Assembly (NCBI RefSeq): GCF_040954835.1
Contig: NC_090723.1
Coordinates: forward strand, 1,808,001-1,872,000
From: Lepisosteus oculatus
Taxonomy: Eukaryota; Chordata; Actinopteri; Semionotiformes; Lepisosteidae
Length of the DNA: 64,000 nucleotides
Reading direction: 5' to 3'
The translations under genes were made by a program, and so were the position numbers. Below the pieces are notes generated by a model. That model made no database searches and had not been told where the DNA came from. It worked only from the letters and a program-made list of their open reading frames with translations. Within the stretch, counting starts at the first letter, position 1, and each line of letters begins with the position of its first letter. This document shows positions 10,637 through 44,625 of this stretch, in pieces.

Positions 10637-35945
<25,309 letters not shown>

Positions 35946-40039: not shown

Positions 40040-40378
40040 TTATACTCTGCATGCATCAGAAGGCAAACACAGGCACAGACACTCACAGGGGCCAATTTTT
40101 CCAAAAGCCAATTAATCCACCAGCATGTCTTTGGACTGTGGGAGAAAACCGGAGCACCTGGAGGAAATCCACATGAACACGGGACAACATACAAACCCCA
40201 TGCAGACAGCATGTGACTTAAAATTGAGCTTTTTCTAGATACTAATTCCATTCAAGGTATAGGATATTGTTTCTTTCCCTTGTTCTGCACTCTAATGCTG
40301 TGTGACCAGTACATTCATGTACTGTACATGCCTGGAGCTGCAAGGCAACAACACAAATCACTGTGCCACCAGGCTGCT
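40040..40378 (-). repeat. V-type SINE split by a second element
   Basis: The bridge and central block are at 40040-40212 (CCAATTTTTCCAAAAGCCAA; GTCTTTGGACTGTGGGAG). The missing head appears at 40330-40378 (GAGCTGCAAGGCAACAACAC, CACTGTGCCACCAGGC). Between them lie about 110 bp unrelated to the SINE that recur at 42877-43021. Confidence 0.78.
40216..40322 (+). mobile_element. Short unnamed insertion element, copy A
   Basis: AAATTGAGCTTTTTCTAGAT ... ATTCCATTCAAGGTATAGGA ... AATGCTGTGTGACCAGT ... CATGTAC also occurs, diverged, at 42877-43021. Its presence in the middle of a SINE shows it is mobile or was inserted. It is too short to code for anything and no terminal repeats are clear. Confidence 0.6.
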
Positions 40379-41867
40379 CTGGCTAGATACCAACAGAATG
40401 AAATTAAAAAGAATGAGTGAAAATTTCTCTAATAAGACATTGCCACCTTCATGGGGGTTTTGGTTGTTAATATAATAGGTTAACAAACAACTGTCATTTT
40501 CCGAATTGTGCTTTTTTAACTTGGGGACCATGTCTTCCTGAAGAAAAAGTTAATAATTTATAGAATACTAGCGCCTGCCTTTCCAGCTGTAGCACTTTAA
40601 GCAAGAAGAGGTCATAAAAAACCTGTGTATTAATAGAAAGGACTTTTTTTTCTTACTCTGACGATTCCTGTACACTCATCTCCAAGCTCAATGAAGCTGC
40701 TCCCCCCAAACCCAGCTGTGTGGAGCTTCATCAGAGACCAACACTGCTGAAGAGCGCCCACTAGTGGCAGGATATTCAAAATACATGAGACCAGGAGATT
40801 ACAAGATCAAATAGTAAATCGATGTATCGATAATATAGAGATCGAGGGGAAGAAAGGAAAGAAAAAAAAAGCACTTAAGATGAATATGATCTGATTTACG
40901 AAACCGCCGGTTAGAGGTTTATTGGATCAAAATCTAACCACAACACACTACAACTACTTTGTATAGTTGTGCACGTTATTATACTAAATTGTATGTATTT
41001 GTGTATTCACTGTCGTGAAATGTGTCCACTGTCATTTTTATTTTAACTAAACCAAATAGATTTTATGCTCTGAACGTGCATTTCTAAGGTTTCGTCATGC
41101 GAACGAATTAAAACCCCCAAACGCAACGCCTCCGATTACCTGATAGGGCCAGGAATAATTCAACCGGCCAGTCGTTTCCCTTCTTGTTATGTACGCCGAT
41201 GTTTAACTGCACGTTAGACCAAAGAGGAGTGAGAATCATCATGTGCGTGCAATACGCTGATTATCTGTAATGTTTTTAGATAGCTGTGATCAGACTGAGA
41301 CTTCTGCTGCATAACATGAAATATAAAACAAACAAAAGCAGACTCAAAGCTTCAACGACATCTGCCGTGTTTTCAGCCATTACCTCAGCTCCGTGAAGTT
41401 GAGCCCCTACAGACAGCACAAACGATGAAACCCACCTCGTTCGTTAGTGCAGCTTTTGTGCCGATTTGTTCCGTTGAAAGTAGCGTTTGTACTGCTTTCG
41501 TGCCCAAGATATAGCACCTTGTTTTCCCGGTGATGACGTGACCATGCACGGTGACTTTGACCTCCAGTGACCCCGTCTGCCGAGTTCAAGCGCTCTGTTA
41601 CTGTTTAGCTCGTACCCTTAACATTATAAAGACAATCGATATCCATAAACAATCAATATCCATAAACCTATGAGCCTCCTTAGATGTGAATAATACTAAG
41701 ACATGACACATGGTAATACCATCTATGACATAAACCTGTGGTTGGAATGTATGTAAAATCACCGTAATTGTAAGATCTATGGTTTGTATTTTCTAAGACA
41801 CGTTTTCCTTTTCTTTCCGTGCTGTGACACACTGTTGCTTCCATACCGATGTTGCAAAGATAGGACG
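40379..41867. other. Intergenic, nothing coding
   Basis: CpG is moderately raised at 41100-41230 and 41400-41590. TATCGATA, the fly DREF-site palindrome, occurs at 40825-40832, and a 17-bp tandem (AATCGATATCCATAAAC / AATCAATATCCATAAAC) at about 41634-41668. No exon recognised. Confidence 0.4.
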
Positions 41868-42266
41868 TGTCACGATATATGGACTTTGTGTCACGACATG
41901 GGCTCAGCATATCCTGTCAGGGTATGTACTATTGCAACATATGGACTACTTGTCGCGATATGGGGGCGGGGCATTCTGCCGGGTGGGGGGGGTTTATGTC
42001 ATATCGCGATATACAGGCTTCATGTCGCGACATGGGCGTGACAGTTTGTGTCATATCGCTATATAGGGTCTTTCATGTCGCGACATGGGGCGGGACACTT
42101 GTGCCGGGATATGCCATATCGCGATATACGAGGCTTCATGTCGCAACATGAAGGGGGATGGGGTTGTCATATCGCGATATATGGACTTAATGTCGCGACA
42201 GTGGCGCTATGACAGTGATGCGCCAGACGCAAGGGGTATCGCGATGTGCGCATTCTTATCGTGACA
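41868..42266. repeat. Array of seven paired CpG palindromes (TATCGCGATA / TGTCGCGACA)
   Basis: Centres of the paired 6-bp cores (TCGCGA and its decayed forms) are: 41872/41893, 41934/41955, 42006/42027, 42058/42080, 42121/42143, 42174/42195 and 42241/42261. Spacing within pairs is 21, 21, 21, 22, 22, 21 and 20 bp. Spacing from pair to pair is 52-72 bp. The left member is usually ATATCGCGATAT, the right CATGTCGCGACATG. TGTCGCGATA at 41951, TGTCGCGACA at 42023, 42076 and 42191, and the reverse form at 41889 match the ZBED1/hDREF consensus TGTCG(C/T)GA(C/T)A exactly. GC-rich linkers (GGGCGGGGC, GGGTGGGGGGGG) separate pairs. Frames of 80-94 codons across it are by-products of the repeat. Confidence 0.85.
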
Positions 42267-42876
42267 GGCTATCGGAGTCGTGAACGCGCTGTGGATGCCA
42301 TGACATTCTTTGTCTGCACAACATGGTGACACTTTTTTGCACGTTCCCCACAACGTTTTCAGGAACACTTTTTTTCCCCTGTAGATATTAAAAGCAATTA
42401 TTTTCCGTAAGATTTTCGAAGTAAATTACGGCAATGAATCACACGGTCTCAGTTCTAGTGTGTCGTGACTGATACACAGCTAAGGCGACAGATTTCCACC
42501 TTGCCAGCGGTTGAGGACTTTTGGCGAGGAGGTAATAGGCTTGTTTTGCCTGCCTTCTCCGCATTACAGTACGTAATACAGGATTTTATTGATTACCTAT
42601 GGATTACTTTTAATTCTGTCACGGTTTTCTATATATTTCTTCAAACGCAAATGATGTCAGCTGCCATGAACTGCCTTACATTGTACAGCGTGTCTCACAC
42701 GAATGTTAGTCGTCTGTGCGTTTGGGTTTCTGTAGACTGGTGCTCAAAACCCAGCAGAGGGAGCAATTGATACACCAATTGATTAGGTCTGAAGAATATG
42801 AAGTCCACCGCCAGAGGGAGACATCGTCATGTTTGGTATTAAAACCGTTTTCCCCTTCTCAGTGCGTGTGAATTTA
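42267..42876. other. Intergenic, nothing recognised
   Basis: TGTCGTGACT at 42460-42469 is a one-mismatch version of the ZBED1/hDREF site. The 101-codon frame at 42465-42770 has no recognisable motif. Confidence 0.35.
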
Positions 42877-43021
42877 ATTAAATCGAGCTTTTCTAGATAC
42901 GAATTCTATTCACGATATAGCACATTGTTTTTTTTTCTTTTAGTTGAGTTAATCTCTTCCGCCATATTAGTGTGCCATCTTTTCTGTGCTATAATGCTGT
43001 GTTACCAGTTCACTAATGTAC
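42877..43021 (+). mobile_element. Short unnamed insertion element, copy B
   Basis: AAATCGAGCTTTTCTAGATA, ATTCTATTCACGATATAGCA and AATGCTGTGTTACCAGTTCA align with copy A at 40216-40322. This copy has about 40 bp more in the middle (TTTAGTTGAGTTAATCTCTT). Confidence 0.6.
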
Positions 43022-43414
43022 AAAACATAAGGCAGTAAAAAGCCATTCTGAAGTCATTACAGCATGTGTGGGTTGCTGAATGAGCAGCCTGGGTAGAGTC
43101 TGGGTGTGACTATAGAGGAGTCATCTCTAGAGGTATGAAGAGCTTACTTAAGGGACTCCACAGCCTAAATTAATGGCTTGCAGCAGACACTTTCCTCCAA
43201 AGCAATTTACAGACACTAAAAAATAAACTGTGCATCGATGTCTGCTGCAGCAGTAATTCCTCTCTCATCTGAAAAAAAGCAAATAGTGATACTCTGGGTA
43301 TATTAACTCAGTGGTAATGAATGCTTGTTCTTCAAGAAAGGATCAAGCCAAATGCTTGCTTGTCACATTAAGGTCAAGTTCTATGTTAATAATAATAACA
43401 TATTATCAAACACG

Positions 43415-43735
43415 AACGGCACGGACGTGCAGTGGTTAGCATTGCTGCCTCGCAGCGCTGGGGTCCTGGGCTCAATTCTGGACCTGGGGTTTTATCTGCG
43501 TGGAGTTAATATGTTCTCCTTTGGGTGGGTTTCCTTCCAGAGTCCAGCACTAGTAGATAATTGGCTTCTGGGGATATTGGCTCTGGAGTGAGGAGTGAGT
43601 GCGTGTCTGGGAGTGCCCTGTGATGAACTGGCATCCTGTCCACAGGGTGTTGTGCCTTGCTCCTGTTATTTCTGGGATAGGCTCCTGCTCCCCTTCAACC
43701 CTGAACTGGGAGAAACAGACAGAAAGGGGCTGGTT
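43415..43735 (+). repeat. V-type SINE, near full length
   Basis: Head (GTGGTTAGCATTGCTGCCTC, GGCTCAATTCTGGACCTGGG), central part (GTGGAGTTAATATGTTCTCC) and tail (CCTGTGATGAACTGGCATCC ... GATAGGCTCCTGCTCCCC) are present. The middle is diverged. Confidence 0.82.
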
Positions 43736-43879: not shown

Positions 43880-44625
43880 CAGCTCCAATGAGTCTTCTTT
43901 CTGAAGTGACTGGAACTGGATTGTTAGTGAAGATGTTAAGATGCTCTTCTTTAAATTACCCTTCAACCAGTTCTCATGCCTGAACAATTGCAACTGCTCC
44001 CTTCTGGCTGGCCATCTGTGCAGTGTCTCCAGCTCATTCTTCTGCTCCTCCTGGTCTTTTCTCTGCCTTCCAAACACTAGTTCTTGCCCACTGCTGTCTT
44101 TGACTCTCTGCCGCAGTCTGTCTCCAGTCCCTCCTACATCCACTGCTCCTCCTTAACCACACTGCCTGTTCCTCTTCTCCAGTCCCCCACCTCCCGGGTC
44201 TGTTCACTATCATCCCTGGATCTGCAGTAATGGAATAAACTACCCATTGAAATCACAGCCCCTCAGTCCCTGGTCACCTTTAACTACCCATTGAAATCAC
44301 AGCCCCTGAGTCCCTGGTCACCTTTAACTACCCATTGAAATCACTGCTGTGAACTTTTACCACCGGCTTATGCTGCTCTCTGCTCCCTGCTGCTCTTTCT
44401 GTCCTGTAATCAATGATTCCTAACCTACACAATGTTTACCTCTCGATGGACATTGTAGTCACAGACACGGCCATTTTTAGATGTGCCTGGCCCACTGATT
44501 TGCTTTTCTTGTCATTTGTACGATTAACTTTCTTTGTCACTATATTTGAACGATTGTCATTTTTAGAATTTAGCTATTGTTGCATTATTGTGTAAGCCAC
44601 CCTGGATAAGAGTATCTGCAATAGT
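43880..44625 (+). repeat. L2/Rex-like LINE 3' end with internal tandem duplication
   Basis: At about 44230 the plus strand encodes WNKLPIEITAPQSLVTF, the C-terminal motif of L2-type ORF2 proteins. The tail near 44590 (TGTAAGCCACCCTGGATAAG, AGTATCTGC) is the usual LINE ending. The WNKLP segment lies in a 44-bp tandem repeat (about 2.5 copies, 44238-44346). The element ends just upstream of the receptor promoter region. Confidence 0.75.
44238..44346 (+). repeat. 44-bp tandem repeat
   Basis: Units begin TACCCATTGAAATCACAGCC at 44241 and 44285, with a partial third at 44329. Two units differ by one base (CTCAGT versus CTGAGT), so the duplication is recent relative to the LINE. 44 is not a multiple of three, so the coding frame is destroyed. 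Confidence 0.92.

Follow-up and report, generated by a model that had tools for sequence, protein, structure and literature searches.

The paired, CpG-containing palindromes at 41867–42267 (plus strand) in a 64,000-nucleotide stretch of Lepisosteus oculatus DNA, which is referred to here as the window, are almost certainly part of a DNA transposon. Comparison with the rest of the genome shows that they form an array inside the elements of a transposon family whose ends are long inverted repeats and whose insertions are flanked by 9-bp target duplications. In the copies of this family that were sampled, the palindromes mostly lie whole helical turns apart, both inside and between pairs.

The initial annotation of this region described seven pairs of TCGCGA-like palindromes with 20–22 bp between the members of a pair, and all 14 sites were located in the window as described. 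Two types of site, A (ATATCGCGATAT) and B (ATGTCGCGACAT), mostly alternate, giving seven A-B pairs; no strand is assigned to the individual pairs. Pair 1 (41867–41899) has decayed cores, TCACGA and TCACGA, starting at 41870 and 41891 with a spacing of 21 bp. Pair 2 (41929–41961) has TTGCAA and TCGCGA at 41932 and 41953 (21 bp), pair 3 (42001–42033) has two intact cores at 42004 and 42025 (21 bp), and pair 4 (42053–42086) has TCGCTA and TCGCGA at 42056 and 42078 (22 bp). The remaining pairs are pair 5 (42116–42149; TCGCGA and TCGCAA at 42119 and 42141, 22 bp), pair 6 (42169–42201; two intact cores at 42172 and 42193, 21 bp), and pair 7 (42236–42267; TCGCGA and TCGTGA at 42239 and 42259, 20 bp). 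From the second site of each pair to the first site of the next, the distances are 41, 51, 31, 41, 31, and 46 bp. Only eight of the 14 cores are intact, with decay in the outer pairs, and six of the 14 sites are perfect 10-bp palindromes. TCGCGA occurs nine times in the window, eight of them in the array, against an expected 1.35, and at least nine occurrences were seen in none of 100 shuffles. In none of 300 shuffles do the linkers, within or between pairs, align across units as well as they do here, and a tandem-repeat finder identifies 41992–42200 as a repeat with a 52-bp period. Both observations mark the array as a tandem repeat of degenerate units. The annotation had argued that it was not a simple tandem repeat, and had itself listed the alignment of linkers as an outcome that would count against this.

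The transposon copy that carries the array extends over 41387–42317 (plus strand), as judged from matches, copy coverage, and alignment ends, and is a left part with its right half missing. It begins with a terminal module (41387–41600, plus strand), and a conserved internal stretch (41601–41838, plus strand) leads from this module to the array. When positions 40800–41860 were compared with the organism's own genome (1.2 Gb, 813 contigs), with 40 of 951 candidates scored, 52 matches were obtained, and all 51 non-self matches were confined to 41385–41839. Both the module and array-derived sequence are present in all of the first 20 copies, which were chosen by the module. Coverage of the window by these copies rises from 0 to 18 across 41350–41400 and falls from 16 to 0 across 42300–42350, and alignments to other copies stop at 42315–42317 in all four copies tried. 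Since most other copies run 1–2 kb past position 42317 and the window copy does not, the window holds a left fragment of ~930 bp; array-bearing complete copies measure 1.6–3.6 kb. Selection in the other direction gave the same association, as all eight loci chosen by the pair pattern alone (all five distinct arrays) have parts of the module. Array size varies, and only two good sites remain in one copy (L020).

This dispersal of pair and module through the genome rules out a locus-specific, intergenic regulatory element. An ordinary satellite, in the sense of a long, homogeneous head-to-tail array, is likewise rejected: in the 20 of 20 module-chosen copies and five of five distinct pair-chosen arrays, short arrays lie within a larger dispersed element. 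No reading frame shared from copy to copy was seen in the stretch compared, where open frames shift between copies. One complete copy, L033, gave no Pfam match in ten frames of at least 60 aa, as expected if it is non-autonomous. Searches for RNA families returned none in the window and one match in L033, far under the gathering score.

Complete copies start with AGCTCCGTGAAGTTG and carry the same terminal module inverted at their right end (for example, L019, L028, and L033). The inverted ends of L018, L019, and L028 align over ~140–150 bp with 74–83% identity, those of L032 align over 50 bp, and those of L015 and L023 are shifted and have a composite form. A genome-wide search for exact termini with CCCCCC gave 56 occurrences, and the control gave none. 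Target duplications were assessed by comparing the nine bases outside the ends in 46 end combinations from 21 sequences. Agreement was complete (9/9) in L019 and L028, eight bases in L032, seven in L018 and L023, and six in L015; the other 40 combinations had 0–4 agreeing bases, and these include the candidate pairs farthest out in L013, L014, L020, L025, L027, and L029. Among copies tested later, L033 and L041 agree at 8/9 bases and L034, L035, and L038 at 7/9, which brings the number of copies with at least 7/9 to ten. These ten cases represent at most eight independent insertions, because L018, L019, and L041 share one insertion context. An alternative duplication of 8 bp matched poorly in the same end pairs. 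The target duplication of hAT elements is 8 bp, and a hAT element is ruled out by the 9-bp length found here. Judged by sequence, the family includes copies with other internal sequences. In L037–L039, L042–L048, and L050 the termini are common to the family, and similarity to the array element is not recognizable much past the terminal 100–200 bp; L034 is a miniature copy of 263 bp.

Several observations bear on how the copies multiplied. Ten of the first 20 copies, together with L041, are preceded by the same 36–700 bp of another repeat that ends CAAGGTAAA (L014, L016, L018, L019, L021, L025, L026, L027, L029, L031, and L041), and the right flank is also in common in L018, L019, and L041. 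A TATTTAAA motif lies directly upstream in most of the copies at this site. Copies in the CAAGGTAAA context probably multiplied together with the host repeat, not by separate jumps. Array copies are also clustered, with 21 of 40 lying within 1 Mb of another compared with ~2.5 expected, in a sample that consists of the 40 best matches to the window and is not random. The clusters are found on contigs C5 (37–40 Mb), C6 (41–44 Mb), C7 (2 Mb), C8 (11–13 and 46–47 Mb), C12 (7–8.3 Mb), and C16 (4–7 Mb). Clustering and the nested context of half of the first 20 copies indicate that copy number is partly the result of amplification by other means. Upstream of the element in L020 there are ~3.5 kb with frames open on both strands (up to 1157 aa); the first 600 bases of this stretch are GC-rich and it is probably repetitive.

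The surroundings of the window copy have features of their own. A CpG-rich island at 40801–42900 (observed/expected ratio ~0.8–1.4) reaches ~0.6 kb past the transposon fragment on each side, and its left 0.6 kb has no other match in the organism's own genome. The element may have landed in a pre-existing unmethylated island, possibly a promoter. Direct repeats with ~80% identity flank the CpG-rich stretch at 40221–40329 and 42880–43028, and pieces of a SINE-like interspersed repeat, which has more copies in the window, lie at 40054–40211 and 43418–43498. A 44-bp tandem repeat is present at 44238–44344 (2.4 copies, 98% matches). Of the two divergent genes between which the initial annotation placed the array, limd2 has a LIM exon at 11165–11323 on the minus strand, far from the array, which matches LIMD2 (PDB 2lzu, E 3.8e-19).

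The initial annotation had predicted that the spacing within pairs would recur elsewhere in the genome, and this prediction was confirmed. The exact pair TATCGCGATA-N11-TGTCGCGACA (spacing 21 bp) is found at 317 places in the organism's own genome, and a search in which the gap was free to take any length from 1 to 31 bp found 669 places; the reversed control gave none in either case. A spacing was counted as in phase when it differed by no more than 1.5 bp from a multiple of 10.45 bp, which applies to eight of the 31 spacings allowed in the open-gap search. Among the first 100 of the 669 places, listed on contigs C1–C5, 96 are in phase, near two, three, or four turns. The spacings at these 100 places are 20 bp (2), 21 bp (50), 22 bp (12), 30 bp (5), 31 bp (7), 32 bp (3), 39 bp (1), 40 bp (3), and 41 bp (17). 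This open-gap scan is the least biased test of phasing, and its places are related by descent and do not amount to 100 events. The architecture gave no match in viral contigs or in prokaryote genome contigs, collections that hold no fish and serve as controls only.

Phasing is also apparent in the individual copies. In 20 copies and the window, the distance from an A site to the neighboring B site is 21 bp in 76 of 97 cases and 22 bp in 18, and that from B to A is 31–33 bp in 23 of 91 cases and 40–44 bp in 60. When distances of 13–65 bp were taken from 25 sequences, those in phase numbered 217 of 232 from A to B and 182 of 214 from B to A, compared with ~29% by chance. The distances between all pairs of sites up to 170 bp apart are distributed as a comb with a period of 10.4–10.5 bp and a vector strength of 0.79. 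The distance between pairs, which had been described as free to vary, therefore falls mostly on helical turns and is quantized as well. Linkers of two, three, and four turns coexist and are common in the copies sampled, and intermediate spacings are rare. In the window alone, helical phasing is not significant when every one of the 14 sites is included (p 0.18); it reaches p 0.007 for the first 12 sites, a subset picked after the fact, and five of the six window linkers share one residue modulo 10 (p 0.0006). The shortened linkers fall, by eye, into at least three sequence classes. As these classes are few, there were few independent steps that landed on a full turn, and as they are shared by descent, the in-phase places go back to a much smaller number of independent events, which for the shortened linkers may be three. 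It is probable that the phasing reflects some binding function.

Binding of a dimer on one face of the DNA would be the natural reading of the fixed spacing within pairs. In sequence, the sites resemble the human element hDRE, TGTCG(C/T)GA(C/T)A, which is the in vitro consensus of ZBED1/hDREF (PMC8775481, PMC6179265). Five of the 14 window sites match it exactly, 11 match with at most one mismatch, and three have two mismatches. Intact B sites are exact hDRE sequences, and A-type sites (TATCGCGATA) are one mismatch away. DNA binding by this BED protein requires self-association through its ATC domain (PMC6179265). According to PMC3606216, ZBED genes derive from hAT transposases, and the ZBED1 orthologues given there include those of Fugu and stickleback. 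In these accounts hDRE is a promoter element, whereas here it occurs in arrays of ~4–19 good sites within a transposon. From the letters of the sites and their spacing, we tentatively read the array as a set of phased sites, carried by the transposon, for a dimeric BED-type protein, for which a host ZBED1-like factor is the leading candidate.

In the mechanism that this suggests, each palindrome would be bound by a protein dimer, and the quantized linkers would hold the dimers on one face of the DNA, leading to cooperative binding. The protein could, with less assurance, be a BED-finger factor of the ZBED1/hDREF type, itself a descendant of hAT transposases. Recruitment of a ZBED1-like factor would then give the element chromatin that is open and active in germ-line or dividing cells, and open chromatin would help the transposase to reach the ends of the element. 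A fragment of the type seen in the window would provide a ready-made ZBED1 regulatory site. Some of the evidence goes against recruitment of a host protein. Steps of 10 bp could arise without selection through microhomology deletion between GTC repeats that lie 10 bp apart, protection of CpG that depends on the array is not seen, and there remain the non-significant phasing of all 14 window sites, the hDRE mismatch of the A-type sites, the common descent of linker classes, and the clustering and nesting of copies.

The array might instead provide accessory sites that the element's own transposase binds as a multimer, raising the specificity and efficiency of transposition, which we regard as possible but unlikely. 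Precedents for such arrangements come from two systems. Galileo, of the P superfamily, has tandem repeats near its ends with extra protein-binding sites, and binding sites have been shown in the tandem repeats of its long inverted ends, where multimeric binding of the transposase has been proposed (PMC3688188). Its THAP sites, as described there, lie inside long inverted repeats, in contrast to the palindromic sites on one side found here. Hermes has many short BED sites past its tips, including a quasi-palindrome that BED domains bind in pairs and cooperatively (PMC10368747); it differs in being a hAT element with an AAGT motif and another arrangement of sites. Retention of the array in copies with no recognizable gene, such as L033, is also what accessory sites would predict. 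Against them, when three complete copies (L033, L035, and L041) were scanned over their full length, the sites proved to be one-sided, lying 0.6–1.3 kb in from the left end. Twelve of 39 copies have no site in the stretch examined, which for eight of the 12 covered just 1.2 kb inside the end, and two of the siteless copies, L034 and L038, have 7/9 target duplications. The 9-bp duplication is in addition unlike that of hAT elements, whose transposases carry BED fingers. As siteless copies have duplications and the sites are one-sided, the core site of the transposase is not the array, which is accessory, and for this reason recruitment of a host ZBED1-like dimer is favored over accessory binding of the transposase.

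The phasing could also have no function at all, if the array were a neutral minisatellite within the transposon in which founder units of ~52 and 62–63 bp were multiplied by unequal exchange. The classes of spacing would then be inherited, and the 10-bp steps would come from microhomology deletion. The linkers do align and fall into few classes, and Tetris provides an example of repeat expansion inside foldback ends (PMC4079207). What makes a neutral origin doubtful is the conservation of the sites, which are shown to be more conserved than the linkers. In 128 of 136 units anchored on the B site, the commonest base has a mean frequency of 0.94 in the A-site columns compared with 0.71–0.82 in those of linker and flank, with a mild bias because the register of the partner was set by best match. 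Both types of site, A and B, have retained their palindrome symmetry. At least three linker classes (by eye) are found at three turns, and the coexistence of two-, three-, and four-turn linkers with few intermediates also speaks against neutrality.

A further suggestion is that a protein bound to the array protects the element from methylation, in the manner of VANC, which acts through the tandemly arrayed motifs of VANDAL elements in Arabidopsis. The targets of VANC form tandem repeats in non-coding parts (PMC5735166), and the array would work much as they or as the internal sites of Galileo do; VANDAL is a plant system with an anti-silencing protein of its own. The CpG observed/expected ratio is 0.76–1.39 across 40.8–43.0 kb (400-bp steps), compared with 0.36 for the window mean, and is near 1 over the element in most copies. 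Terminal modules are ~94% identical to their consensus, and their CpG transitions are just ~2 times as frequent as other C/G transitions, against ~3–4 times in a small SINE-like control (seven copies, three CpG). These values favor protection, and the outer 300-bp flanks point weakly the same way (CpG ratio 0.66 in 12 array copies with their own flank versus 0.44 in 12 arrayless copies, p 0.06). A larger flank effect (0.87 versus 0.48, p 0.001) was rejected as confounded by copies in one CpG-rich host repeat. However, over the first 200 bp, where the comparison concerns CpGs in the terminal module and not in the palindromes, the ratio is alike in 25 array copies and 12 arrayless ones (0.95 versus 0.86, p 0.41). 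The arrayless set excludes L049, which is a right end, and L020, which has its two good sites. CpG transitions amount to 9.2% in array copies and 14.1% in arrayless copies (p 0.047). Other C/G transitions rise alike, from 4.8 to 8.7%, so the CpG excess of arrayless copies is no larger (1.6 times, versus 1.9 times with the array). The idea in the initial annotation that CpGs survived because a protein protected them is thus not supported, as high CpG is found over the whole element and also in arrayless copies. The moderate age of the family may suffice for their retention, and an anti-silencing role for the array is improbable.

BANP binds the CGCG element TCTCGCGAGA, a methylation-sensitive promoter element of which the palindromes could be variants. 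That the array consists of such elements is hardly credible. The TCGCGA core is in common, the looser motif TMTCGCGANR can be fitted on one strand to five of the 14 sites, and three CGCG elements stand 21 and 11 nt from each other in the DENR promoter (PMC6192621). However, TCTCGCGAGA itself is matched by no site, all 14 having two to four mismatches, and the same source contrasts hDRE with TCTCGCGAGA and keeps the two apart.

The initial annotation knew of no described element with this architecture, which was too strong a statement. The site resembles the ZBED1/hDREF element, and transposons with site arrays or minisatellites close to an end have been described before, as in Galileo (PMC3688188), VANDAL (PMC5735166), Hermes (PMC10368747), and Rehavkus (PMC6446971). 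In the length of its duplication, in its long, composite ends, and in having a minisatellite by one end, the element has the architecture tabulated for Rehavkus and Foldback elements (PMC6446971). The transposase of Rehavkus is of the MULE type and has a PHD finger. Rehavkus and the Mutator-Foldback elements Tm1 and Tetris are described with long or composite inverted ends and with minisatellite or tandem repeats by an end, and the 9-bp target duplication of Rehavkus and Tm1 is found here too. The units differ from those of Rehavkus in having paired CpG palindromes in helical register. Rehavkus is reported from arthropods and annelids in PMC6446971, which doubts Mutator elements in vertebrates, whereas the present family occupies a 1.2-Gb, CpG-depleted vertebrate genome. 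Literature queries with the exact letters TGTCGCGACA, TATCGCGATA, and TATCGCGACATA gave nothing relevant by title, and none was found that joined Rehavkus with a fish genome. The combination of features was in none of the titles and abstracts listed, in a search that covered subscription journals thinly, and an earlier description or database entry is possible.

In its most specific form, the proposal is that a vertebrate Foldback/Rehavkus-like family built a phased array of palindromes recognized by the domesticated, hAT-derived ZBED1, and so seeded multi-site ZBED1 hubs throughout the genome; this we put forward as a speculation that is rather unlikely to hold in full. Binding by a ZBED1-like host protein would mean that one transposon exploits a regulator with its origin in another. 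Binding by the transposase of the element itself would provide an example, in vertebrates, of multi-site ends of the Foldback type, with a bearing on Mutator-like elements in vertebrates, a question raised in PMC6446971. Hundreds of copies that vary in the number of sites and the length of linkers provide a natural experiment on cooperative DNA binding.
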